Assembly: GCA_903868035.1 (NCBI GenBank)
Contig: CAIPTQ010000195.1
Span: 1 to 15,143 of the forward strand
DNA: 15,143 bases
From: an uncultured Phycisphaerales bacterium
GTDB lineage: Bacteria > Planctomycetota > Phycisphaerae > WQYP01
Direction of reading: 5' to 3'
Part shown: positions 2,383-15,143 of the stretch, piece after piece
How the letters are laid out: every line of letters starts with the position of its first letter
How positions within the stretch are numbered: the first letter of the stretch is position 1
Notes under the pieces: generated by a model
Databases searched by the model: none
What the model saw: the letters and a program-made list of their open reading frames with translations, nothing else
Told to the model about the DNA's origin: nothing
Program-made: the position numbers and the translations under genes

Positions 2383-5300
2383 CTACAAGCGAGCCAGTTC
2401 GTCGGCGATGGCGTCGACGGCACTGTGAATTTGGGTCTCACAGTGGTTGGTCGTGATGAAAAAGCGCAAGCGAGCGGAGTGCTCGGGCACGGCGGGATGG
2501 AGAATCGGCTGGACATTGATGCCGCGGTCGAAGAGGGCGCGGGCCAGGCGGAGACTTTTGACCGAACTGCCGACGATCACCGGAATGACGGGCGTGCCCG
2601 CGGCAAGGCCGGTGTTGAGCCCGCGTTCCCGGGCCTGGTGGAGGAATAATGCCGATAGCGCACGCAGGCGGGTGACGCGTTGCGGCTGCGCCTGGAGCAC
2701 GGTCAAGGCGGCCAGCGCCGCGGCCGCACTGGGCGGAGACATGCCCACGCTGTAGACGAATCCCGGAGCCGTATACCCCAGGTACTCGACGAGTTCGGCC
2801 GACCCGGCGATGTACCCGCCGCAACTGGCCAGCGACTTGGAGAGCGTGCCCATCCATAGCTCGACATCGGCGCGGGCGCTGCCAAAGTGCTCGCCGATGC
2901 CCCGGCCCGTGAGCCCCATGGTGCCCAGCGAGTGCGCCTCATCGACGAGCAGCAGCGCTTTATGCTTCTTTTTGAGTTCCACGAAGCGCGGCAGATCGGG
3001 GTAATCGCCATCCATGCTGTACACGCCTTCGATGGCTATCAGCACGCGCCGGTAGCGCGGCCGCATTTCCGTCAACAGCGCATCGGCCGCCGCATAGTCG
3101 TTGTGGGCAAAGACGCGCCGGGTCGCACCAGAAAGCTGCGCCCCCTGGATGATCGAATTGTGCGCCAAAACATCATGCACGATCAGGTCTTCCGGCCCCA
3201 GCAGGTGGCCGATGGTGGTGACGTTGGTGGCATGGCCGGAGACGAAGACCAGCGCCGCGGCGGTCCCCAGAAACGTCGCCAGCGCCCGCTCCAGATCACG
3301 ATGCACCTGCTTATCACCGGAGACCAGCCGACTGGCGCCCGCGCTGGTGCCATAGCGGTCAATGGCGGCCTTGGCGGCGGCGGCGACATCCGGGTCATGG
3401 GCCATGCCGACGTAGTCATAGACGCAGAAGTTGACCAGTTCGTGTCCGTCCACGCGCGCGACACAGCCGGAGGATGTCCCACCTTGATCGACACGGAAAT
3501 AGGGGTTATCGCCGGCCACGGCCTTGAGCATGCGTTCGTAACGCTTTAACTCGGCGTACTCGGGGAAGCGGGCAAACTCGTAATGTGCCGGCGGAATCTG
3601 GCCGGCGAGGGCATCAAGTTTTGAATGATCGTCCAGCCGCTTCTGCACCGCTAAGGCCAAATCGCCCAGCGTCTGCGCCGGGTTGAATTCCATATCGGGC
3701 AGGTGGCAGGCGAAGGACTTTTCCAACCGGGCGGCCAGTTCCACGCGTTTGAGCGAATCCAGGCCCAGGGCCGTCAGCGACATGCCAGGCGTCACGCTGG
3801 ACAGCGCCGCACCACCTAGGGCCAGGGCGTGCTGGCAGACGGTGGCCACAACATAAGATTGCGGAGCCCGCGCCGCGGCATGCTCGTTGGGAGCGGCCGC
3901 ACCGCAGGGACAGGTACTGCCATGGACCATGACGGGGGGCACGGCGGCAGCGGCGCCCTCGGCATCCACACGGTGATCTTCGGCCAGGGTTTTGAGTTCC
4001 CCCGCCAGGAATGCCGCCCGGCAGGCGCGGCGCTGCACCTTGCCGCTGGAGGTTTTGGGAATCGTTCCACAACGCACCAGCACAATCGTCTCCAGCGCCA
4101 GCCCATGCTCATCGAGCACTGCCTCGCGCGCCGCCTTCAGCATCGGCGTGAAATCCGTCTCCGCGGTGCGCGTGACCTCCAGCACCAGCACCAGCCGCTG
4201 GCCCCCATCGTCCGCCACCGCAAACGCCGCCCCGAAACCCGCCTCCAGCAGCGGATGACTCTTTTGGGCCGTGGCTTCCAAATCCTGCGGGTGATGGTTC
4301 AGGCCGCGGACGATCAGCATGTCATCCTGCCGCCCGGTGATATAAAGTTGGCCCTCGTGGACAAATCCCAAATCCCCCGTCCGCAAAAACGGACCTTCCC
4401 CCGTATCGCTCAGGTGGGCCCCAAACGATTGGCCGGTCTGCTCCGGCTTGTTCCAGTACCCCTGGCCCACCGATCCACCCGCAACCCAAATCTCACCCAC
4501 GTGGCCCGGCACCGCTTCCGTACACGTCCGTCCATCCACAATCGCCACCCGTAAATCGCCCACCGGCGCTCCACAGCCCACCAACCGCCGCGCATGACAC
4601 GCCTCGTCGCCCACCACCTCCACGCCGTTCTCCGCCAGCGCCGCATCATGAAACGCCCGCACCATGGCCCCGCTCCCCCGCTTGGTGCCGCTGACCATCA
4701 GCGTCGCCTCCGCCAGTCCATAGCACGGATAAAACGCCCCGGCACTAAAGCCGCACGGCGCAAACGCCGCCGCAAAGCGCTTGAGCGTTTCCGACGCCAC
4801 GGGTTCGGCGCCCACAAACGCCAGGCTCCAGCACGAGAGGTCCAGCGTGGCGCGCTGCGCGGCGGTGATCTTGCGCACGCAGAGGTCATAGGCGAAATTC
4901 GGCCCCCCGGAAATCGTCGCCCGGTACTTGCTGATCGCCGCCAGCCACGCAATCGGCTGCTGCAGGAAGGCCCCCGGCGTCATCAATACGCTGGTCAGGC
5001 CCGCCAGCATCGGCTCGAGCACGCCGCCCACCAGTCCCATGTCGTGATACGCCGGCAGCCAGAACACGCTCGCGTCGCTTCCACCCATCCCGAACGCCCG
5101 CTGGATGGCGCGCATGTTATGCATCAGGTTGCCGTGGCTGATCATCACCCCCTTGGGCTGGCTCGTCGAGCCCGACGTGTACTGCAGCAGCGCCAGCATC
5201 TCGGGTACGATCAAAGGCCTCTTCCAGCGCTCGGCCCCGGCGTCAGGGATTTCGTCGGAGGCCAGCCACGGAATCGCCGCTGCGTTGGTCTGGCCCTTGT

Positions 5301-5817
5301 CTGAACCCGTCAGCGCCTGATGCTGCGCCGTGGCCGCGGCGGTGCTTAAAACCAGACCGGCCCCGGCGTCCGCGACGATCGCGCCAAAACGCTCCACGGT
5401 CCGCCGGTGCGGCAGATACGTGGGCACCGCTGTGCAACCGGCGTACAGACAACCAAAGAACCCCGCGACAAAGTCCAGCCCATGGGGATACGCCAGCAGC
5501 ACGCGCTCCCCAGCCAGCCCCAGCTCCTGCAACCGCGCCGCCACCGCACGCGCCCGCCGATCCAACTGGGCGTAGGTGAGTGCGATTTCCCCGCACTGGC
5601 CCTCCAGCAAATAGACAAATGCCGACTGTTCCGGACGCTCCCGCGCATGCTGCCCCAGCACGCCGATCATATCCTCCAGCGGCATTTGCCGGGCCGCCGG
5701 CAGACCCGCCTCCGGCGACCGGATCTGCTTGCCCGCAGCCTCGGCGCAGGTTTTCCTGGATGACAGTCGCGGCACGCGGCCCGTCACCGGTTCCATGGTT
5801 GTCGCGGGCTGGGTCAT
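2383..5817 (-). CDS. trifunctional fatty acyl-AMP ligase / acyl carrier protein / alpha-oxoamine synthase
   Basis: This is a 1,144-residue fusion of three enzymes. Residues about 45-615 are an adenylating domain of the fatty acyl-AMP ligase type, with YTSGST at 213-218, LPAYHDMG at 254-261, YGLAE at 366-370, RTGD at 479-482 and the C-terminal catalytic Lys593 in PKTSSGK. Residues about 650-730 are a carrier domain with GLDSL, where Ser688 would take phosphopantetheine. Residues about 770-1144 are a PLP enzyme of the BioF/KBL/serine palmitoyltransferase family, with ring-stacking His886, DEAHS at 959-963 and Lys994 in TLSKS. The inferred reaction is ATP-dependent fatty acid activation, transfer to the internal carrier, then decarboxylative condensation with an amino acid to a 2-amino-3-ketone. 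The start at 5817 is chosen because AAGGA lies 8 nt upstream; an ATG at 5847 would add 10 residues and has no clear site. The amino acid and chain length cannot be read from the sequence. Confidence 0.92.
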   Translation of the reverse strand: MTQPATTMEPVTGRVPRLSSRKTCAEAAGKQIRSPEAGLPAARQMPLEDMIGVLGQHARERPEQSAFVYLLEGQCGEIALTYAQLDRRARAVAARLQELGLAGERVLLAYPHGLDFVAGFFGCLYAGCTAVPTYLPHRRTVERFGAIVADAGAGLVLSTAAATAQHQALTGSDKGQTNAAAIPWLASDEIPDAGAERWKRPLIVPEMLALLQYTSGSTSQPKGVMISHGNLMHNMRAIQRAFGMGGSDASVFWLPAYHDMGLVGGVLEPMLAGLTSVLMTPGAFLQQPIAWLAAISKYRATISGGPNFAYDLCVRKITAAQRATLDLSCWSLAFVGAEPVASETLKRFAAAFAPCGFSAGAFYPCYGLAEATLMVSGTKRGSGAMVRAFHDAALAENGVEVVGDEACHARRLVGCGAPVGDLRVAIVDGRTCTEAVPGHVGEIWVAGGSVGQGYWNKPEQTGQSFGAHLSDTGEGPFLRTGDLGFVHEGQLYITGRQDDMLIVRGLNHHPQDLEATAQKSHPLLEAGFGAAFAVADDGGQRLVLVLEVTRTAETDFTPMLKAAREAVLDEHGLALETIVLVRCGTIPKTSSGKVQRRACRAAFLAGELKTLAEDHRVDAEGAAAAVPPVMVHGSTCPCGAAAPNEHAAARAPQSYVVATVCQHALALGGAALSSVTPGMSLTALGLDSLKRVELAARLEKSFACHLPDMEFNPAQTLGDLALAVQKRLDDHSKLDALAGQIPPAHYEFARFPEYAELKRYERMLKAVAGDNPYFRVDQGGTSSGCVARVDGHELVNFCVYDYVGMAHDPDVAAAAKAAIDRYGTSAGASRLVSGDKQVHRDLERALATFLGTAAALVFVSGHATNVTTIGHLLGPEDLIVHDVLAHNSIIQGAQLSGATRRVFAHNDYAAADALLTEMRPRYRRVLIAIEGVYSMDGDYPDLPRFVELKKKHKALLLVDEAHSLGTMGLTGRGIGEHFGSARADVELWMGTLSKSLASCGGYIAGSAELVEYLGYTAPGFVYSVGMSPPSAAAALAALTVLQAQPQRVTRLRALSALFLHQARERGLNTGLAAGTPVIPVIVGSSVKSLRLARALFDRGINVQPILHPAVPEHSARLRFFITTNHCETQIHSAVDAIADELARL

Positions 5818-5825
5818 GCAGGGAA

Positions 5826-5830
5826 TCCTT
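5826..5830 (-). promoter_or_regulatory. ribosome binding site for the trifunctional synthase
   Basis: AAGGA on the minus strand lies 8 nt before the ATG at 5817. It decides that start over the ATG at 5847, which sits just after the T-run of the leader terminator and has no Shine-Dalgarno match. Confidence 0.6.
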
Positions 5831-5845
5831 ATTCGCCATGAACGC

Positions 5846-5898
5846 AAAAAAGCCGACGTGGCTTAAGCACCCGTAAAATGCTCAAACCACGTCGGCTT
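5846..5898 (-). terminator. intrinsic terminator in the leader of the synthase operon
   Basis: A perfect 12-bp stem pairs AAGCCGACGTGG (5898-5887 read on minus) with CCACGTCGGCTT (5861-5850), and a T6 run (5851-5846) overlaps the end of the 3' arm. A second 4-bp helix can form inside the loop. The structure points leftward and lies only about 30 nt before the synthase start, so it either ends a short RNA or conditionally stops the operon transcript. The reverse direction has no T-run after the stem. Confidence 0.8.
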
Positions 5899-5988
5899 AC
5901 TCGTCAGCGGGCCTCCTGGCTGTGCCAGACTGCCCTTCATCTAGTCATCCGACTCGGAGCCTCTGCAACGGCGATGAGGCTCCAATAC
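5846..5988 (-). ncRNA. structured leader RNA, candidate riboswitch/attenuator or small RNA
   Basis: Between a good TATAAT promoter and the intrinsic terminator lies a transcript of about 143 nt with three nested structures. First is a perfect 8-bp hairpin, GGAGCCTC/GAGGCTCC (5983-5956), with a 12-nt loop. Second is a long irregular stem: GTCGG with CCGAC (5953-5949 with 5895-5891), ACT with AGT (5945-5943 with 5901-5899), GGGC with GCCC (5935-5932 with 5912-5909) and CTGGC with GCCAG (5928-5924 with 5920-5916), closed by a 3-nt loop. The intervening loops are symmetric (3x3, 7x7, 3x3). Third is the terminator, whose 5' arm contains the same CCGAC that closes the long stem. Mutually exclusive folds are the hallmark of a regulatory leader. 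No known riboswitch class was confidently recognised; the GCCAGGAGGCCCGC stretch resembles a cobalamin box, but the rest of that riboswitch is absent. Confidence 0.55.
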
Positions 5989-5994
5989 ATTTCC

Positions 5995-6022
5995 ATTATA
6001 TGGCGTGCCGCGCGGTAAACAA
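5995..6022 (-). promoter_or_regulatory. sigma-70-like promoter for the leader and synthase operon
   Basis: On the minus strand TTGTTT (6022-6017) is followed after 16 nt by a perfect TATAAT (6000-5995), placing transcription start near 5988. This fits the 5' end of the structured leader. The -35 matches four of six consensus bases. Confidence 0.55.
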
Positions 6023-6042
6023 AGTGGTGCTGGGAAATAATG

Positions 6043-6260
6043 GGTGCATGACAAAATCGGCGGTCAACGGAACCCGTAGCGTAAGCGAGGGAGTTGCGTG
6101 CATTCAGGCGGGCGGTTTCTTCGCGCAGGCGCGGGCTATCCGTCGCCTGCGGGAGTCATCGCAGCGCCTGCGCGAGGACCGCGGGGTTATGGGGAACGGT
6201 CTTTCCACCTCGCTGACGCTACGGGTTCCGTTTTGCCGCCGCCCAGAATGTCATGCACCC
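6043..6260. repeat. MITE-like, nearly palindromic element of about 218 bp
   Basis: Two inverted arms flank the element. The cores 6066-6090 and 6208-6232 match in 24 of 25 positions when one is reverse-complemented. The match resumes outward to GGGTGCATGACA at 6043-6054 and its complement at 6249-6260, with small indels between. Inside, TCGCGCAGGCGC (6121-6132) and GCGCCTGCGCGA (6164-6175) form another perfect 12-bp inverted pair, so the whole element could fold into one long hairpin. The core ACCCGTAGCGT-AGCGAGG is a sequence I recall as dispersed in planctomycete genomes, where it yields spurious peptides such as TRSVSEG. It encodes no transposase. Small ORFs across it (for example 5922-6470) are not treated as genes. 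Confidence 0.75.
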
Positions 6261-6298: not shown

Positions 6299-6342
6299 AT
6301 CTCAATCCATTGCTCGGAATAAATTCCTTTCGAGATGGCCCG

Positions 6343-7716
6343 ATGGGGATTACCATCGCCCGGGTATGCTTTTGGAAAATGATTGTGGTGGTTGTGGGTC
6401 TGGTCGGTGCCGCCCTGAGCGCACCGGGCTGCGCCCATTTTCCGGTCAATGCGCCGCTGGCGCGCTTTGACCCTCATGCCGGCTATCGCTTTGAAAATCT
6501 TCCCCCGACGGAAAAGAATACCGATGCCGTGTTTGTCGTGCTGGCGTTCTCCGGCGGCGGCATGCGGTCGGCGGCCTATAGCTTTGGTTTGCTGGAAGAA
6601 CTGCGGAACACGCCGATCCGTTTCGCCGGCCCGCCGCGCTCGCTGCTGGATGAAGTGGACGTCGTCTCTTCGGTTTCCGCCAGCAGCATCACCGCCGCCT
6701 ATTATGCCGCCCAGCAGGAACAGATGTTCCAGACGTTCCTTCCGCGGGTGTTGTACCGGGATCTCGAGGCGCTGGTGGCGGCCTATGCGCTCAATCCGGT
6801 GAACTGGGCGCGGCTGGCGTCGCCGACGTTCAGCCGCACGGATCTCTTCGCGGAACTACTGGACAACGAGATTTACGACCATCTCACCTTTGCCGATCTC
6901 ATCCGCGCGCGGCGCCGGCCCTACGTGCTGCTGAACGCCGCGGATTTCAGCCTCGGGACGCATTTCGAGTTTACCCAGGAGCAATTCGATTTCCTCTATT
7001 CCGACCTCGCCTCGGTGCCGCTGGCCCGGGCGGTGGTCGCGTCCATGACCGTGCCCGTGGTTCTGGCGCCCGTCAATATCGAAAATTATCCGCACGGCCC
7101 CGATTTTCGCGAGCCCGCGTGGCTCGCCGCGACCCTGGCGGACAAAAACGCCTCGCGCCGTGTGCAGCAGCGCGCCCAGAACCTGCGCTCCTACGAAGAT
7201 GCCGCCAACCGCCCGCACATCCGGGTGCTCGATGGCGCCTATGGCGACTACCGGGGCCTGCAAGGGCCGATGATCGCGTTTATCTCGCCCGATGGGGATT
7301 TCTCGATTCGCCGGCTGATCAACGAACATAAAATCAAAAAGCTGGTGATCATTTCCGCCAATGTCGCGCGCACCCCCGACCTACACTTTGACCGCACGCT
7401 CCGTTCGCCAAGCTGGTACGACACGCTCTATTTTGGGCTCACGGCGCCGATCCGCAACAATGCCGCCGAAATCGTGACCGTGTTCGAGGAATTGCTGCAA
7501 GCCGACCATGCGCACAAGGATACGCCGCCGTATGAGTCGTACTTCATCACGCTGGATTTCAGCGACGTGCAAGAACCCGCCCTGCGCCAGCGACTGGAGA
7601 AGTCGCCGACCGCGCTGTCGCTGACGCGCGACCAGGTCGATGACCTGCGCCGCGCGGCGGCGGAGGCCTTGCGGAATTCCGCGGAGTTTCAGCGGTTGTT
7701 GAAGGACCTGAATTGA
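6343..7716 (+). CDS. patatin-like phospholipase family protein, probably exported lipoprotein
   Basis: The 457-residue protein has the patatin layout: oxyanion-hole SGGGMR at 70-75, the nucleophile region SVSAS with Ser112, and the Asp of the dyad in DGA at 297-299. Patatins hydrolyse acyl esters of membrane lipids with a Ser-Asp dyad. The usual GxSxG is degenerate here (SxSxS), so activity is uncertain. The N-terminus has Arg7 and Lys12, then a hydrophobic segment (about 13-24) ending in SAPGC with Cys30, which suggests a signal peptide and possibly a lipid-modified cysteine, though the lipobox is not ideal. The ATG at 6343 is chosen over an in-frame TTG at 6310 because it fits the putative promoter and leaves a normal signal peptide; an internal ATG at 6379 would remove the positive charges. 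It is transcribed away from the lipid-type operon. Confidence 0.85.
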   Translation: MGITIARVCFWKMIVVVVGLVGAALSAPGCAHFPVNAPLARFDPHAGYRFENLPPTEKNTDAVFVVLAFSGGGMRSAAYSFGLLEELRNTPIRFAGPPRSLLDEVDVVSSVSASSITAAYYAAQQEQMFQTFLPRVLYRDLEALVAAYALNPVNWARLASPTFSRTDLFAELLDNEIYDHLTFADLIRARRRPYVLLNAADFSLGTHFEFTQEQFDFLYSDLASVPLARAVVASMTVPVVLAPVNIENYPHGPDFREPAWLAATLADKNASRRVQQRAQNLRSYEDAANRPHIRVLDGAYGDYRGLQGPMIAFISPDGDFSIRRLINEHKIKKLVIISANVARTPDLHFDRTLRSPSWYDTLYFGLTAPIRNNAAEIVTVFEELLQADHAHKDTPPYESYFITLDFSDVQEPALRQRLEKSPTALSLTRDQVDDLRRAAAEALRNSAEFQRLLKDLN

Positions 7717-8339: not shown

Positions 8340-11300
8340 ATGCGGGCATCAGTGTCGAATGCTCAGGATCACTCTCTGACAGGCATGCTGCGCGCCCCCG
8401 GCGCGCGGGCCTTGTCGCGGTCGCGCGCCCGCCGCCAGCGACCCGCGCCGCATGCCCCGCGCTGGCTGGGTTGCGAGGCCCTCGAACAGCGACTCATGCT
8501 CTCGGGGAATCTGGCGATTACCGGAGTAAAAAGTCTGGGCGGGGCGGGGCATCCCTTCGACTCTCTGGAAGTCAAATTCAATCAGGAAATCCAGGCCTCC
8601 ACTTTTGACACCTCCGACATCACCATCAACGGCACCCCCGGCATCGCCAGTGCCGTCACTCAGATTGATACCACCACCTATCGCGTGGACCTCACCGCCG
8701 GCACCACCGGCGCGGACGTCTATGACTTGAAGATCGGGCCGGACATCCTCGATCTTGCCGCCACCCCCATGAACCAGGACGGCAACCTGACTCCCGGTGA
8801 ATTGACCGACGCCTATTCCGCCAAGCTCATCTCCTCCGCCCAGTCCATCGCCTCGGGCGTCACTACGTTTGATCAGCAGAACCTGGTCGTCTATGGCGCG
8901 GCCGTCTCCTTCGCCGGCGGCCACACGCTGGGAACCGTCAGCCTTGACGGTGCGGCCACGGCCAGTTTTGCCGCTTCGGTCAACGTCCTCAACCTCACCG
9001 TGGGCGGAGCCTCGCGCGTCAATCTTGCCGGCGGCATGACCCTCACCGCCACCGGCACCATCCTCATCACCGGCAACTCCACCATCCTCGCCCAGGGGGC
9101 CAACACCACCGCGCAGGTCGGCGGCATCTGGGCCGGCCAGGGCGTCATCATTGTCGGCAGCGCCCTCACGATTGATTCCGGTTCCACCCTCACCGCCGAC
9201 GCCCAGGGCTATGCCGGCGCGGCTCCCGCCTTCCAGACCGGTGCCGGTCCCGGCGGTGGCAGCGGCGGTGCCGGCGGCGGGGCGGGTGCGGGCTACGGCG
9301 GGGTAGGGGGGTACAGTTCCCAGTGGCGCTATCCCGGCCGCCCGTACGGCTCGGCCACCCAGCCCACCGACCTCGGCTCCGGCGGCGCCTCCGACGACCA
9401 CAGCGGCGACTTCGGCGGCAACGGCGGCGGAGTCATCAAACTCGTCCTCTCCGGTGCCCTCAACGTCAATGGTTCCATCTCCGCCAACGGCGCCAATGGC
9501 CAGTACGACGGCGGTGCCGGCGGCTCCGGCGGTTCGATCTGGATTGCCGCCGACGCCATCACCGGAACCGGCGCCATCCAGGCCAATGGCGGCAGCGCCC
9601 CCAATACATCCTGGCCCGGCGGCGGCGGCGGCGGACGCGTCGCCCTCTACTACGATTCCGCCTTCAGCCTCCCCCGCGCCAACGTCTCCGTCACCGGCGG
9701 CACCGGCTTCCGCAGCGCCGCCGTGGGCACGATCTACGTGCTCGACAACACCCCGCTCGGTCCCCGCATCATCGCCAGCGACCCCTCCTTCATCACCTCC
9801 CGCACCGACGTCACCACCATTCACCTGACCACCTCCGAGGCCCTGGCCACCACCTCCGCCAACGACCCCGCCAACTATTCTCTCATCTACGCCGGTGCCG
9901 ACCGCGCCTTCGGCACCGCCGACGACGTCACCATCACCCTCACCCCCGCCTATCTCGATGGCACCACCCAGATCTACCTCTCCGCCGCCGGTGCCCTCAC
10001 TCCGGGCCTCTACCAACTCACCGCCAAGTCCACCGGCCTCCAAGACCCCGCCGGCAATCCCCTCGACCAAAACCAGGACGGCCTGGCCGAAGACTACGTC
10101 GCCACCCTCGAAGTGGACACCACCGCCCCCACCGTCGCCTCCATTGCCCCCGCCTCGGCGCTCTCCTTCGACGGCAACGACTACGTCATGACCATGGCCC
10201 GCAACTGGGGCTTCGCCACCACCGCCACCGTCGGGGCCTGGGTCAAACCCACCTCCGGCGGCACCGTCTTCTCGATGGACTGGACCGACGCCTACGATGA
10301 ACTCCTGCTCTATGTCTCATCCGACGGCAGCGTCCAGTTCTACAACCATTACCGCCCCGGCAACTACACCGGCATCTCCAGCGCCCCCGGCCTCGCCCCC
10401 ATGGGGAGTTGGACCTACATTTCCGGCGTCATCGACGGCAGCCGCAATAACTTGCATCTCTTCATCAACGGCACCGAAGTCACCACCACCCCCACCACCG
10501 CCGGCGCCCAGGTGGACATTGTCGATTCCACTCCCCGCGTCGCCGCCATCGGCCAGCGCCCCGGCCACTGGGTCGCCAGCGAAGCCTACAACGGCCAGAT
10601 CGCCGACGTGCGCCTCTGGAACCGCCCCCTCTCCGCCTCCGAACTCCAGACCGCCATGGTGACCCCCTCCACATCCGCCGACCCCGGCCTGGTCCTCAAC
10701 TGGCGCCTCGATGAAGGTTACGGCCAGGTCATCACCGACTATTCCGGCCACGGCAACACCGGCTATTACACCCCGCCGCCCTATCAAACAGATTGGCCCA
10801 CCTGGGTCAACGCCACCCCGGAAAATCAGAAATACGCCCTCCGCGTGGTCTTCAACGATCTCGGCGGCCTTGACCCCGCCACCGTCACCAACATCGCCAA
10901 CTACCATCTTCTCGCCAGCGGCCGCGACGGCACCTTCGCCGACGGCAACGAAACCGACCGCTCCTCCTGGCTCACCCGCGTCGATTTCGACCCCGCCTCC
11001 CGCACCGCCATCCTCCGCCTCTCCCAAGTCCTCCCCGAAGATGCCTATCAACTCACCATCCGCAGCGCCGGCATCCGTGATGCCGCCGGCAACCCCCTCG
11101 GCGGCGGCATCGACTACGTCAGCCCAGCCCTCAACATCGTCGAGACCCCCGCCACCGTCACCATCTCCCTCAACCCTGCCGACGACTCCGGCGCCAACGC
11201 CGCCGACCGCATCACCAACAACACCACCCCGCGCTTCTCCGTGACCGTCAACAAGCCCGGCACCATCCAGTTGGATTACGACAACAACGGCACCTACGAA

Positions 11301-14300
11301 CAATCCCTCCCCGTCGCCTCCGCCGGTACCTACACCTTCCTTACCCCCGCCCCCTGGGGCGACGGCCCCCATACCGTCCGCGCCCACTTCATCCCCTGGG
11401 TGGGCCAGACCGCAGACAGCTCCACCGCCCTTATCATTGACACCCATGGGGCGCTCCTCCCCGGTGCCGCCAGCGGCGTGGGCCTCCTCTTCGACGGCAT
11501 GAACGATTATCTCGCCACCCCCGACCTCCGCTCCGGCTTCACCACCGACACCATCACCCTGGAACTCTGGTTCAACGCCTCCGGTCCCGGCGTCCTGATT
11601 GCCGAGACCGGCGCCCCGGTTCCCAACAGCGGCTGGCATGAATCCTCCATCGAAATCCTCACCTCCGGCGAAGTCCGCGTCCGCAACTGGAACCTCGCCT
11701 CCGTCAGTGTCGGCACCGTCGCCTTCGGCACCTGGCATCATGTCGCCCTCCGCTATGACCATGCCACCGGTATCACCAACGGCTACCTTGACGGTGTCAA
11801 GGCCCTGGCCACGGCCTCCGGTGACCGCGCGGCTCCCTGGGAATCCGGCTACGAACAACATTTCCTGCTGGGTGCCACCGAAGGCACCAACCTCGGCTCC
11901 GGGGCCTACTTCAACGGCCAGTTGGACGATTTCCGCGTTTGGTCCACCGCCCGCACCGATGACCAAATCCGCGCTGACATGAACGCCCGTCTCACCGGCA
12001 CTGAAACCGGTCTTGTCGCCGCCTATAACATGGATGAAAGTCAAGGTGCCATCGCACATGACATCACCCCCGCCGCCCGCAACGCCACCCTCGCCCCCGG
12101 CTCCGCCGCCCCGGCCTGGTCCGGCTCGGCCCTCGCCCCCGCCGGCGCCATGCTCTTTGACGGCTCCAGCGACTACATCAACATCGGCGACAGCGCCAGC
12201 CTCCATCTCTCCTCCGGCCTCACCTTTGAAGCTTGGGTCAACCCGCGCAATCCCGGCGGCGATCAGCCCGTCTTCGCCAAGGAAGGCCCCGGCAATCAGC
12301 AGTCCTACTGGTTCGGCCTCTATGGCAACCAATTCGGCCTCCTCATCAGCAACGGCGGCGGCGGCTGGCCATGCGACGCCCGCCACAGCGGCTCGATTGC
12401 CGCCGGCGTCTGGCAGCACATCGCCAGCACCTGGGACGGCACCACCTGGCGCAATTACCTCAACGGCGTCCTCGTCGGTCAGGGCACCTATACCGGCCCA
12501 CTGGCCAATTCCGCCGCCCGCCTCATGATTGGCCGCAATTCTGAATTCGACACGACGCATTTCGCGGGCTCTCTGGCAGACATCCAAATCTGGACCGTCG
12601 CTCGCACCCAATCCCAGATTGCCGCTGACATGCGCCAGATACTCCCCGACGCCACCCCCGGCCTCGCCGCCTACTGGCGTTTGGATGATGCCGGTCCCAA
12701 CGTCGCCGACCACAGCGGCAACGGCAACACCGGCACCTTCGGCAACGGCGATCCCGCCCGCTCACCCCTCCCCATTCCCTCAACCATTGAGATGCAGCAC
12801 CAAGCCATTCGCATCAGCTTCGGCGACGCCAACACCATGGACCCCGCCACCCTCCTCAATCCCGCCCAATACCGACTCCTGGCCAGTGGCGGCGATCGCA
12901 CCTTCGCCGACGGCAATGAAACGGACCTCTCCTCCTGGATCACCTCCGTGGCCTTCGATCCCGTCACCCAGTCCGCCACTCTCTACCTCTCCCAACCGCT
13001 CCCCGATGATTACTATCAGGTCACCGTCCGCAGTGCCGGCATTCTCGACATCGCCGGCAACACCTTCGCCGGCGGCGTAGACCAAACCATCACCGCCCTG
13101 GGCATCGTCGATAGCCCAGCCACAATCTCCAGCGTCATGGAGACCGCCAGCGACACCGGCGTTTCCTCAACCGATGGGTTAACCACTGTCCGTACCCCCG
13201 CCATCGACGTCACCGTCAACAAGCGCGGCACCATCGACGTCGATTTCAACGGCGATGGGCAGTACGAAGTCTCGCTCAACGTCGATGCTGCGGGAACCTA
13301 CGTGTTCACGCCCGCCGCCCCGCTGTCCGACGGCCAGCACATCGTCACCGCGCGCTTCACCCCCTGGGTCGGCCAGCAGGCGTTCAGCACGCTTACCCTC
13401 ACCGTGGACACTGTCAGCCCCACGCTCGTCAATGTCAACCAAGGCTCGGCCTTGTCCTTCAACGGCACCAGCACGCTGGTCTCCATGGGCGACGTTCCCG
13501 CCCTGGTCATGACGCGCAGCCTCACCTTGGAAGCCTGGATTTTCCCCCGCAGCAACACCACGGCCACCATCGCCGGTAAGGACGGCCAATACCTGCTGAC
13601 CCGCTCTTCCGGGGGCACCATTTACTGGTCCTTCGCCGGCACCGGCTACCCCGGCTCACCCGGCTGGGGTTACAACAACACCGGCGTCTATACCCCGCTC
13701 AACCAATGGTCCCATGTCGCCGTCACCTACGAAGCCGGCGTCATCAAAACTTACCTCAATGGCGTGCTGGCGCACACCTACAACGGTTCGAGCCTCCTCG
13801 GCAACGCCAGCCCCGCGACCAGTCAATTCTGGATCGGGGCGCGCCAGGCGGGGACGGAATTCTTCGACGGCATGATCGACGACGTCCGCCTCTACAACGT
13901 CGCTCTCTCCGATCAGGCCCTCAGTTCCACCTATCTTCGCAAACTCACCGGCGCCGAATTGGGCCTCGTCGGTTACTGGCGCTTCGATGAAGGTTCCGGC
14001 ACCACGGTTGCCGACCTCACCGGCCATGGCCTCACCGGCACGCTCGGGGCGGGCGTGGCCAGCCAGCGCCCCGTTTGGACCACCCTCACCCCCGCGCCCC
14101 TCACCGTTCAGACGCCCCTGGCCCCCTATTACCAACGCACCATCACCTTCAGCGAACCGATTGACCCCGCCAGCTTCTCGACCGCCAATATTCATATCCT
14201 CGGCCCCGGCGGCGTCGATCTGGGTGCCGCCCTCTCCATCTCCGGCAATGGCACCACCTACACCGTGCTTTTCAACCCCGTCAATGCCGCGGGCGTCTAT

Positions 14301-15143
14301 GCGCTCTCGGTCGATGGTGCCGTCACCGATCTGGCCGGCAATCTCCTGGCCCCGGCGCTGGACGCCTTCACCATCTCCGTACCCGCACGTTCCGATCTGG
14401 TCGTCAGCCGCATCACACCGGTCGGACCCGCCGGCCATCCGTTCGACCGCCTTGAAGTGCTTTTCTCCCAACCGATCGTATCCGATACCTTCACGCTCGA
14501 TGACCTCCAACTCACCGGCACAAGCGGCGTCATCACCCCGCTGGGCATCACGAAAATCAGCGAACAACGCTATCTGATCGACTGCACCGGCCTGACTACC
14601 GCCTCCAACTACACGCTGGTCATCGGCACCGACATCCAGGCCCTATCCGTCGGCCAGCCCGCCATTGCCGGGAACTATGCACTCCTGGGTCTACCGGGTT
14701 ACGTGCTGGCTTCCGACAACATGTCGCTGGATAACTGGAATGGCATTGTGGCCGGCATCTCCGCCACCATCGTCGGCGAACATGCCTTCGCCAGCCTCGC
14801 GCTCTTTAACTCATCCCTGACCGTCTCCGGTTCCACGCTCAACGTTGGCGACGTCTACCTCTCCGGGGCCGCCACCCTCACCCTCGCCGGCGGTATGACC
14901 TGCACCATCACCGGCACCCTCGCCGTCCAGGATCACTCCACCCTCATCTGCCAAAGCCTCAACAATACCGACCAGGTGAATGGCGCCTGGGCGGGTCAGG
15001 GCGTCACCTTGAATGCCGCCAACGTCATCCTCGACGCCTCCTCGCGCATCTCCGCCGACGGCCAGGGTTATGCCAGCCAGACCGCCTATCGCACCAGCGG
15101 CATCGGACCCGGCGCGTCGATTCGACCCAACGCCAATGGCAAC
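8340..15143 (+). CDS. giant modular surface/secreted protein with Ig-like and LamG domains (partial, runs off right edge)
   Basis: One frame stays open for at least 2,268 codons to the window edge; an in-frame TGA at 8325-8327 precedes it. ATG 8340 is the longest start and ATG 8385 an alternative; neither has a strong ribosome binding site. The N-terminus is Arg-rich, then LEALEQRLMLS-like (ALEQRLMLS at about 51-59), a motif seen on giant planctomycete proteins. Domains in order, by residue: bacterial Ig-like (58-165) with an EF-hand-like NQDGNLTPGE near 145; a Ser/Thr/Gly-rich repetitive segment (170-440) with GGAGG-type runs; Ig-like (455-600) with DQNQDG; LamG-like 1 (607-776); Ig-like pair (826-1036); LamG-like 2 (1048-1219); LamG-like 3 (1271-1436); Ig-like pair (1484-1694); LamG-like 4 (1704-1870); two more Ig-like domains (about 1920-2115); then a second copy of the repetitive segment. 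LamG domains typically bind carbohydrate or protein ligands, so an adhesive or matrix role is inferred. Confidence 0.88.
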   Translation, partial: MRASVSNAQDHSLTGMLRAPGARALSRSRARRQRPAPHAPRWLGCEALEQRLMLSGNLAITGVKSLGGAGHPFDSLEVKFNQEIQASTFDTSDITINGTPGIASAVTQIDTTTYRVDLTAGTTGADVYDLKIGPDILDLAATPMNQDGNLTPGELTDAYSAKLISSAQSIASGVTTFDQQNLVVYGAAVSFAGGHTLGTVSLDGAATASFAASVNVLNLTVGGASRVNLAGGMTLTATGTILITGNSTILAQGANTTAQVGGIWAGQGVIIVGSALTIDSGSTLTADAQGYAGAAPAFQTGAGPGGGSGGAGGGAGAGYGGVGGYSSQWRYPGRPYGSATQPTDLGSGGASDDHSGDFGGNGGGVIKLVLSGALNVNGSISANGANGQYDGGAGGSGGSIWIAADAITGTGAIQANGGSAPNTSWPGGGGGGRVALYYDSAFSLPRANVSVTGGTGFRSAAVGTIYVLDNTPLGPRIIASDPSFITSRTDVTTIHLTTSEALATTSANDPANYSLIYAGADRAFGTADDVTITLTPAYLDGTTQIYLSAAGALTPGLYQLTAKSTGLQDPAGNPLDQNQDGLAEDYVATLEVDTTAPTVASIAPASALSFDGNDYVMTMARNWGFATTATVGAWVKPTSGGTVFSMDWTDAYDELLLYVSSDGSVQFYNHYRPGNYTGISSAPGLAPMGSWTYISGVIDGSRNNLHLFINGTEVTTTPTTAGAQVDIVDSTPRVAAIGQRPGHWVASEAYNGQIADVRLWNRPLSASELQTAMVTPSTSADPGLVLNWRLDEGYGQVITDYSGHGNTGYYTPPPYQTDWPTWVNATPENQKYALRVVFNDLGGLDPATVTNIANYHLLASGRDGTFADGNETDRSSWLTRVDFDPASRTAILRLSQVLPEDAYQLTIRSAGIRDAAGNPLGGGIDYVSPALNIVETPATVTISLNPADDSGANAADRITNNTTPRFSVTVNKPGTIQLDYDNNGTYEQSLPVASAGTYTFLTPAPWGDGPHTVRAHFIPWVGQTADSSTALIIDTHGALLPGAASGVGLLFDGMNDYLATPDLRSGFTTDTITLELWFNASGPGVLIAETGAPVPNSGWHESSIEILTSGEVRVRNWNLASVSVGTVAFGTWHHVALRYDHATGITNGYLDGVKALATASGDRAAPWESGYEQHFLLGATEGTNLGSGAYFNGQLDDFRVWSTARTDDQIRADMNARLTGTETGLVAAYNMDESQGAIAHDITPAARNATLAPGSAAPAWSGSALAPAGAMLFDGSSDYINIGDSASLHLSSGLTFEAWVNPRNPGGDQPVFAKEGPGNQQSYWFGLYGNQFGLLISNGGGGWPCDARHSGSIAAGVWQHIASTWDGTTWRNYLNGVLVGQGTYTGPLANSAARLMIGRNSEFDTTHFAGSLADIQIWTVARTQSQIAADMRQILPDATPGLAAYWRLDDAGPNVADHSGNGNTGTFGNGDPARSPLPIPSTIEMQHQAIRISFGDANTMDPATLLNPAQYRLLASGGDRTFADGNETDLSSWITSVAFDPVTQSATLYLSQPLPDDYYQVTVRSAGILDIAGNTFAGGVDQTITALGIVDSPATISSVMETASDTGVSSTDGLTTVRTPAIDVTVNKRGTIDVDFNGDGQYEVSLNVDAAGTYVFTPAAPLSDGQHIVTARFTPWVGQQAFSTLTLTVDTVSPTLVNVNQGSALSFNGTSTLVSMGDVPALVMTRSLTLEAWIFPRSNTTATIAGKDGQYLLTRSSGGTIYWSFAGTGYPGSPGWGYNNTGVYTPLNQWSHVAVTYEAGVIKTYLNGVLAHTYNGSSLLGNASPATSQFWIGARQAGTEFFDGMIDDVRLYNVALSDQALSSTYLRKLTGAELGLVGYWRFDEGSGTTVADLTGHGLTGTLGAGVASQRPVWTTLTPAPLTVQTPLAPYYQRTITFSEPIDPASFSTANIHILGPGGVDLGAALSISGNGTTYTVLFNPVNAAGVYALSVDGAVTDLAGNLLAPALDAFTISVPARSDLVVSRITPVGPAGHPFDRLEVLFSQPIVSDTFTLDDLQLTGTSGVITPLGITKISEQRYLIDCTGLTTASNYTLVIGTDIQALSVGQPAIAGNYALLGLPGYVLASDNMSLDNWNGIVAGISATIVGEHAFASLALFNSSLTVSGSTLNVGDVYLSGAATLTLAGGMTCTITGTLAVQDHSTLICQSLNNTDQVNGAWAGQGVTLNAANVILDASSRISADGQGYASQTAYRTSGIGPGASIRPNANGN
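10815..13419 (+). repeat. duplicated Ig-like pair within the giant gene (10815-11445 and 12789-13419)
   Basis: Two blocks about 1.97 kb apart encode strongly similar protein: the first has FADGNETDRSSW and VTVNKPGTI, the second FADGNETDLSSW and VTVNKRGTI. Both continue through AGTY and a PWVGQ motif. Each block is followed by a LamG-like domain, indicating duplication of a composite module rather than of one domain. Confidence 0.8.
14397..15143 (+). repeat. start of a second copy of the N-terminal module of the giant gene (first copy 8511 onward)
   Basis: Protein landmarks of the first copy recur about 5.86-5.89 kb later: GHPFDSLEVKF against GHPFDRLEVLF, NLAGGMT at 9021 against LAGGMT at 14883, and WAGQGV, then a DAQGYA or DGQGYA motif. 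The second copy is cut by the window edge before its Gly-rich part. Confidence 0.75.

Follow-up and report, generated by a model that had tools for sequence, protein, structure and literature searches.

A probable transcription-terminating leader RNA of a general stress regulon in planctomycetes

Known attenuators mostly serve one pathway. In transcriptional ON riboswitches, such as the glycine and the adenine (ydhL) riboswitches, the basal helix and the terminator have a strand in common, while T-box leaders are represented by a model in the Rfam library and sibling small RNAs are found in several similar copies per genome. The Brt RNAs of Bartonella are described as proposed in two roles, both as small RNA and as antitermination switch (PMC5387305). 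The Rhodopirellula-1 motif of 2010 is listed for Proteobacteria and Planctomycetes in a table row that carries no Rfam accession (PMC2864571), and term counts in two genome-wide RNA surveys gave no mention of the planctomycete genera looked for (PMC11109978, PMC8632094).

Overall, we present the analysis of a structured RNA element which is likely a cis-acting leader of an undescribed family, controlling the transcription of stress genes by antitermination through a choice between two folds. It is probably a transcription-terminating leader of a general stress regulon that works as an ON switch. Text searches of the literature found no description of the leader family, which is apparently undescribed. 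Beyond the single copy dealt with in the initial annotation, the RNA family, the stress regulon and the link to DUF2294 proteins are new.

The leader RNA of the window and its relatives

The window, i.e. the whole stretch of 15,143 nucleotides analysed, carries the leader and the genes behind it on its minus strand as follows.

5995 to 6022, minus: putative promoter read from the sequence, -35 TTGTTT at 6022-6017, 16-nt spacer, -10 TATAAT at 6000-5995
5956 to 5983, minus: 5' hairpin P1 of 8 bp, 5983-5976 pairing with 5963-5956, from folding
5891 to 5953, minus: long stem (sensor/antiterminator), from folding and covariation in 119 relatives
5953-5949 with 5895-5891, minus: basal helix of the long stem, GUCGG with CCGAC
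5948-5946 facing 5898-5896, minus: 3x3 loop of the long stem, AUG/AAG
5945-5943 with 5901-5899, minus: helix of the long stem, ACU with AGU
5935-5932 with 5912-5909, minus: helix of the long stem, GGGC with GCCC
Between the GGGC/GCCC and UCUGGC/GCCAGG helices, minus: AG/AG loop of the long stem
5929-5924 with 5920-5915, minus: top helix of the long stem, UCUGGC with GCCAGG
5846 to 5898, minus: intrinsic terminator, with GUCGG at 5857-5853 and the U-run at 5851-5846, from terminator scan and covariation
5898-5891, minus: 5' arm of the terminator, AAGCCGAC, the strand common to terminator and long stem
5826 to 5830, minus: putative ribosome-binding site AAGGA read from the sequence, 8 nt upstream of ATG 5817
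2383 to 5817, minus: acyl-AMP ligase, carrier protein and oxoamine synthase fusion of 1144 aa (Pfam PF00501, PF23024, PF00550, PF00155), the gene presumed to be controlled
1362 to 2312, minus: ABC transporter ATPase (PF00005), probable operon member on the same strand after a 70-nt gap
250 to 1365, minus: ABC-2 permease (PF12698/PF01061), probable operon member with a 4-nt overlap with the ATPase gene

Transcription is expected to start near 5988, as predicted from the promoter letters, and 28 nt separate the U-run from ATG 5817. The leader segment folds far more stably than its shuffles (z -7.45, 0/200). The minus-strand series of TATAAT promoter, 8-bp hairpin, long irregular stem and terminator proposed in the initial annotation was found again in sequence and fold, with GUCGG 5953-5949 and CCGAC 5895-5891 exactly at the positions given there; its placing of the terminator GTCGG at 5858-5854 was one base off, and the terminator stem, taken as 12 bp, has at least 20 pairs in both the fold and the terminator scan.

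The TTGTTT/TATAAT promoter of the window was absent from the output of a consensus promoter scan requiring 9 of 12 letters. The -10-like block CTATAATG is common to the upstream regions of 119 relatives and scores above shuffled sequence, lying at a median of 47 nt upstream of the core (37 nt in the window). The upstream 54 nt of these relatives show a weak excess of structure, with a mean fold of -16.4 kcal/mol vs -12.3 kcal/mol (sd 3.9) after base shuffling, and the sequence of P1 is variable among them. As a side observation, the DNA upstream of the leader promoter (6042-6260) forms a nested inverted repeat like a small mobile or REP-type element, with arms at 6066-6090/6208-6232 (96%) and 6042-6063/6239-6260 (82%), an 18-base piece of which occurs in 0/294 loci searched. 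Farther off, a very long plus-strand protein with LamG and Ig-like domains (8340-15143) runs off the window.

Plain blastn with the window alone retrieved homologues at E 4e-16 and 7e-17, and the window element is therefore not a chance structure. One genome (G001) holds five copies by blastn at E<1e-5, and one of these as query gave relatives in 10/201 genomes of the order, G001 included. A family covariance model was built from 17 copies, and the window element, being itself among the 17, scores 102 bits in it. Matches to the model were obtained in 9/51 genomes of the family (E<=0.001) and, with just nine candidates scored per genome in the searches of about 400 genomes, in 19/400 genomes of the order (E<=0.01), 65/397 of one planctomycete class (E<=0.001) and 14/392 of the phylum (E<=1e-6), the homologous stretch of the window being 5845-5956 (minus). 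Close counting in 20 positive genomes gave 3 to 11 matches each (E<=1e-5), or 3-10 copies per genome once reverse-strand echoes below 42 bits were dropped. Copies within one genome are alike and often clustered: G544:C557 carries six within 12 kb, G445:C91 six within 6 kb. A divergent subfamily, GCCGGAAGACG, was seen at five loci (L184, L180, L175, L179, L181) before LpxA-type and other genes, and in L180 and L175 a G-C replaces the U-A pair after the 3x3 loop.

In an alignment fitted to a model that holds the terminator as well as the upper part of the long stem, and hence biased towards both, 93.7% of the long-stem cells are paired among 119 members, with 125 two-sided changes (shuffles 29.5), and 94.5% of the terminator cells, with 279 (shuffles 70.5). 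For either fold, covariation exceeds that of each of the 500 shuffles and of every slid version, and a slide by one column lowers pairing to 38-48%. The basal UCGG/CCGA helix, which stands outside the model, is near-invariant, shuffles matching its observed pairing in 69/500 and its score in 96/500 cases, and because of this invariance covariation cannot decide on the shared helix. In an alignment of 180 elements, each of its four inner pairs is formed in 164 to 179, the pair of column 5 with 74 being unpaired in 16/180; for the fifth (column 4 with 75) the numbers are 111 formed and 69 unpaired. Compensatory changes in this helix are few among the 180 elements. C-G-C has become U-A-U on all three strands together in L155 and L233:3604, which belong to different genomes, and G-C has become A-U in L156, while an A at column 73 occurs in four members, with the matching long-stem U in two and without it in L232 and L233:57.

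The internal-loop columns 9, 11, 27, 57, 64 and 68-70 show 90-98% conservation among the 119 members, these letters being about as conserved as paired ones, and the apical loop varies in length across the family (3 nt in the window). A small GUC/GAC hairpin did not hold up. A leader-peptide attenuator was discarded as far as the two AUGs of the core are concerned: those at 5948-5946 and 5940-5938, the former opening a three-codon frame AUG ACU AGA UGA in the window, are not kept across the 119 members, column 10 being U in 78/119 and column 19 being G in 59/119.

With reference to Rfam 15, 0 matches reached the gathering score in the window, the best match on the leader was a microRNA model at E 3.4, and 18 related loci gave 0 matches at E<=1. 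The earlier proposal of an undescribed cis-regulatory RNA, outside the established riboswitch classes and with a long stem that excludes the terminator, is corroborated by the abundance of homologues in blastn and covariance-model searches, by the covariation of both folds and by this outcome in Rfam.

Genes behind the leaders

The leader stands before a FAAL (acyl-ligase fusion) gene in three genomes, namely that of the window and those of L182 and L174, whose relatives are 67% identical over 1107 residues and 65% identical over 337 residues respectively. In L001, a locus of G001 which holds the closest relative of the window's fusion protein in a protein search (72% identical), no element lies directly upstream of the fusion gene; two back-to-back elements are located about 2 kb from it, facing Dps and a KaiC-like gene respectively. 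The lack of a leader before this gene counts against the reading given below.

The genes that recur downstream of the elements are MpsC/DUF2294, KaiC, Dps, CsbD, BON, catalase, DUF892, sigma factors and desaturases, five of these (CsbD, BON, catalase, Dps, DUF892) being classical members of the general stress response. Fifty downstream proteins, picked for variety and then named by Pfam, included MpsC/DUF2294, KaiC, ferritin (Dps-like), CsbD, DUF883, BON, catalase, DUF892, DUF5670, BrkB, fatty-acid desaturase, LpxA, four sigma70 factors, carbohydrate phosphorylase, PLD, isochorismatase, ice-binding, acetate kinase, GH1 and patatin, with no Pfam match for 12 of the 50. The occurrence of one terminator/antiterminator device before many stress genes suggests that the stress response is controlled after the start of transcription.

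By a simple score of codon composition, the first gene lies on the strand of the element in 124/135 cases, and an opposite-strand ORF ranked first for 11/135; for some elements the same score puts the gene start 200-460 nt away. These elements weigh against cis control, although in L209, one of the 11, an MpsC-family frame lies at distance 0. The distance between an element and the aligned portion of its gene has a median of 57 nt for MpsC, 77.5 for sigma factors and 25 for FAAL.

Two side observations concern these neighbourhoods. In L162, L163, L174 and L159 a small similar frame (VVNGE.L.L.L) lies between the terminator and DUF892. The window also has a plus-strand patatin-like phospholipase gene (6310-7716) that points away from the leader, and in L200 a patatin gene follows an element.

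The two folds and what may act on them

When the RNA is folded only as far as the shared strand reaches, the best fold is the long stem in 115/118 members (criterion: three or more of the four inner basal pairs), the G-C pair 7-72 having a mean pair probability of 0.99. At full length, the terminator fold is favoured over the antiterminator by 8.6 kcal/mol (sd 2.3, range 1.2 to 13.9; 118 members). When the leader of the window adopts the antiterminator fold, the leftover upper hairpin stops 6 nt short of the U-run. The family has a conserved structured core and a terminator with a common strand, which is the architecture of a transcriptional riboswitch.

On this footing, RNA polymerase would start near 5988 and make P1 and then the long stem, which is computed to fold once 5891 has been transcribed. 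Without stabilisation, the 3' arm of the terminator would reclaim the shared AAGCCGAC, a preference given by the computed folds, and transcription would presumably stop at the U-run. A signal, be it a small molecule or a protein, may stabilise the long stem, whose internal loops are conserved, whereupon the leftover hairpin would lie too far from the U-run to terminate and the gene would be read. From this fold logic we infer the ON direction of the switch. The family would serve a planctomycete general-stress regulon, and in the window a lipid-synthesis operon.

A special case of this explanation, possible if rather unlikely, is that a leaderless DUF2294 protein attaches to the long stem so that the polymerase reads on, which would make DUF2294 the regulator of the regulon. 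DUF2294 (PF10057) is present in 20/20 genomes with the RNA vs 1/20 without. Across the 397 class genomes searched for the RNA, 54 have both, 11 the RNA only, 23 DUF2294 only and 309 neither (Fisher p 5e-37, a value that ignores kinship among assemblies of which many are in pieces). Against the idea stand these 23 genomes with DUF2294 and no RNA match, and the 11 of 65 RNA-bearing genomes with no DUF2294 match (G017, G049, G467, G480, G516, G532, G565, G608, G634, G651, G691).

The neighbourhoods speak for it, as counted over already located elements and after splitting the DUF2294 genes of the 20+20 genomes at 95 bits, a cut-off picked after viewing the scores, both of which weaken the count: of 41 high-score genes (one from an RNA-less genome), 19 lie back to back with the nearest element within 1 kb, 7 just before an element, 11 far and 4 on element-less contigs, 0/41 being led by an element within 1 kb, while 27/33 low-score paralogues are led by one. 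Examples of the leaderless back-to-back paralogues are G001:C4:1906-2244 and G150:C376:13390-13728. A leaderless gene beside its targets is how regulator genes often look, and the DUF2294 paralogue is therefore a possible regulator and a good suspect for that role, even though the paralogues may just be stress proteins from the same island.

The structure model of DUF2294 is confident (pLDDT 89.7). It has no clear relative among solved structures, with no known RNA-binding fold standing out, and with a pI of 5.9-8.8 across eight examples the protein is not strikingly basic, both of which count against this special case. DUF2294 is annotated as MpsC, and in favour of the regulator reading, mpsC could be deleted in Staphylococcus with no phenotype and was not needed for MpsAB (PMC6689103).

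The fuller scheme is doubtful: part of the planctomycete general stress response would run by antitermination, with a leaderless, RNA-binding DUF2294 paralogue recognising the common leader and letting polymerase through at up to about ten stress genes or operons in a genome, among them sigma factors and its own paralogues. If true, DUF2294 would represent a novel type of antitermination protein, and since it is widespread in other bacteria, more regulons of this sort might exist there. The link to the leaders gives a functional lead for DUF2294.

Stress alters elongation speed. A purely kinetic or temperature switch with no ligand, in which the long stem forms first and the speed of the polymerase or the temperature decides whether the terminator displaces it, would draw on this effect, on the dominance of the prefix fold and on the narrow energy gap across the family. 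It is nonetheless improbable, as internal-loop letters conserved to such a degree would be needless in a simple timer.

Quite improbable, too, is a multicopy family of trans-acting small RNAs of about 143 nt with their own promoter and terminator, the downstream genes being incidental or sharing the promoter region only; the free RNA of that length considered in the initial annotation is accordingly held less likely than a leader. The terminator is strong family-wide by the pairing given above, a promoter-like block marks the upstream regions as a group and a genome may hold up to 10 similar cores, all of which fit small RNAs, although a terminated RNA would exist under any role. The placement of the genes argues otherwise. 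The loci contain 83 genes of recurrent families, 15 of them far from an element and 68 within 700 nt; of these 68, 67 lie downstream on the strand of the element and one overlaps it in the same orientation, with 0 upstream or opposite, a count that shows orientation and not frequency because the loci were drawn around elements. The two divergent elements of L001 each face their own gene, the short gaps leave little room for a second promoter before many genes, and the most conserved letters lie in helices and internal loops, not in an exposed seed.

Constitutive attenuation, with a terminator that merely lowers expression behind strong promoters and a conservation due to descent by duplication, would suit the similar, clustered copies of a genome and is very unlikely given that two exclusive folds are kept with compensatory changes before unrelated genes in many genomes.

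Comparison with known systems

Among the defining features tested, the family shows a structured core and a terminator with a common strand, as in the general kind, and none that defines a named family. T-box leaders likewise choose between terminator and antiterminator, and they were set aside on the absence of an Rfam match in the window (gathering score) and in 18 related loci (E<=1).

ANTAR leaders (EutV, NasR, AmiR) also act by leader antitermination, one regulator serving several leaders. Their targets are described as two small hexaloop hairpins (PMC3369931), whereas the window has a single long stem whose apical loop measures 3 nt. Two adjacent hexaloop hairpins with A at position 1 and G at position 4 are not present here, the P2 loop of the window having 3 nt. 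ANTAR (PF03861) genes occur in 3/20 genomes with the RNA and 3/20 without, with 0/14 control genomes matched. The ANTAR system was rejected on both grounds, its genes not tracking the RNA and the twin hexaloop hairpins being absent.

The RAT of BglG, LicT and SacY is described as a single hairpin overlapping a terminator, the stabilisation of which turns the genes on, as proposed here; it has 29-30 nt (PMC3369931), in contrast to about 63 nt and other letters in the leader core. Proteins with CAT_RBD (PF03123) were found in 0/40 genomes (20 with the RNA, 20 without), 4/14 control genomes being matched, and the BglG/LicT system was dismissed on their absence from the 40 genomes.

Transcriptional ON riboswitches have the same architecture of a conserved core and a basal helix excluding the terminator. 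They serve one pathway, whereas the leaders here precede stress genes and lack an Rfam match.

Brt RNAs, as described for Bartonella, are multicopy and place a 3' stem-loop directly before a gene, like the leaders here; they are given as 194-203 nt long, unique to Bartonella and each 10-18 nt before an HTH regulator gene (PMC5387305). Compared by description, HTH regulator genes in the one case contrast with many unrelated stress genes in the other. Overall, the family resembles RAT and riboswitch leaders by mechanism and Brt RNAs by genomic style.
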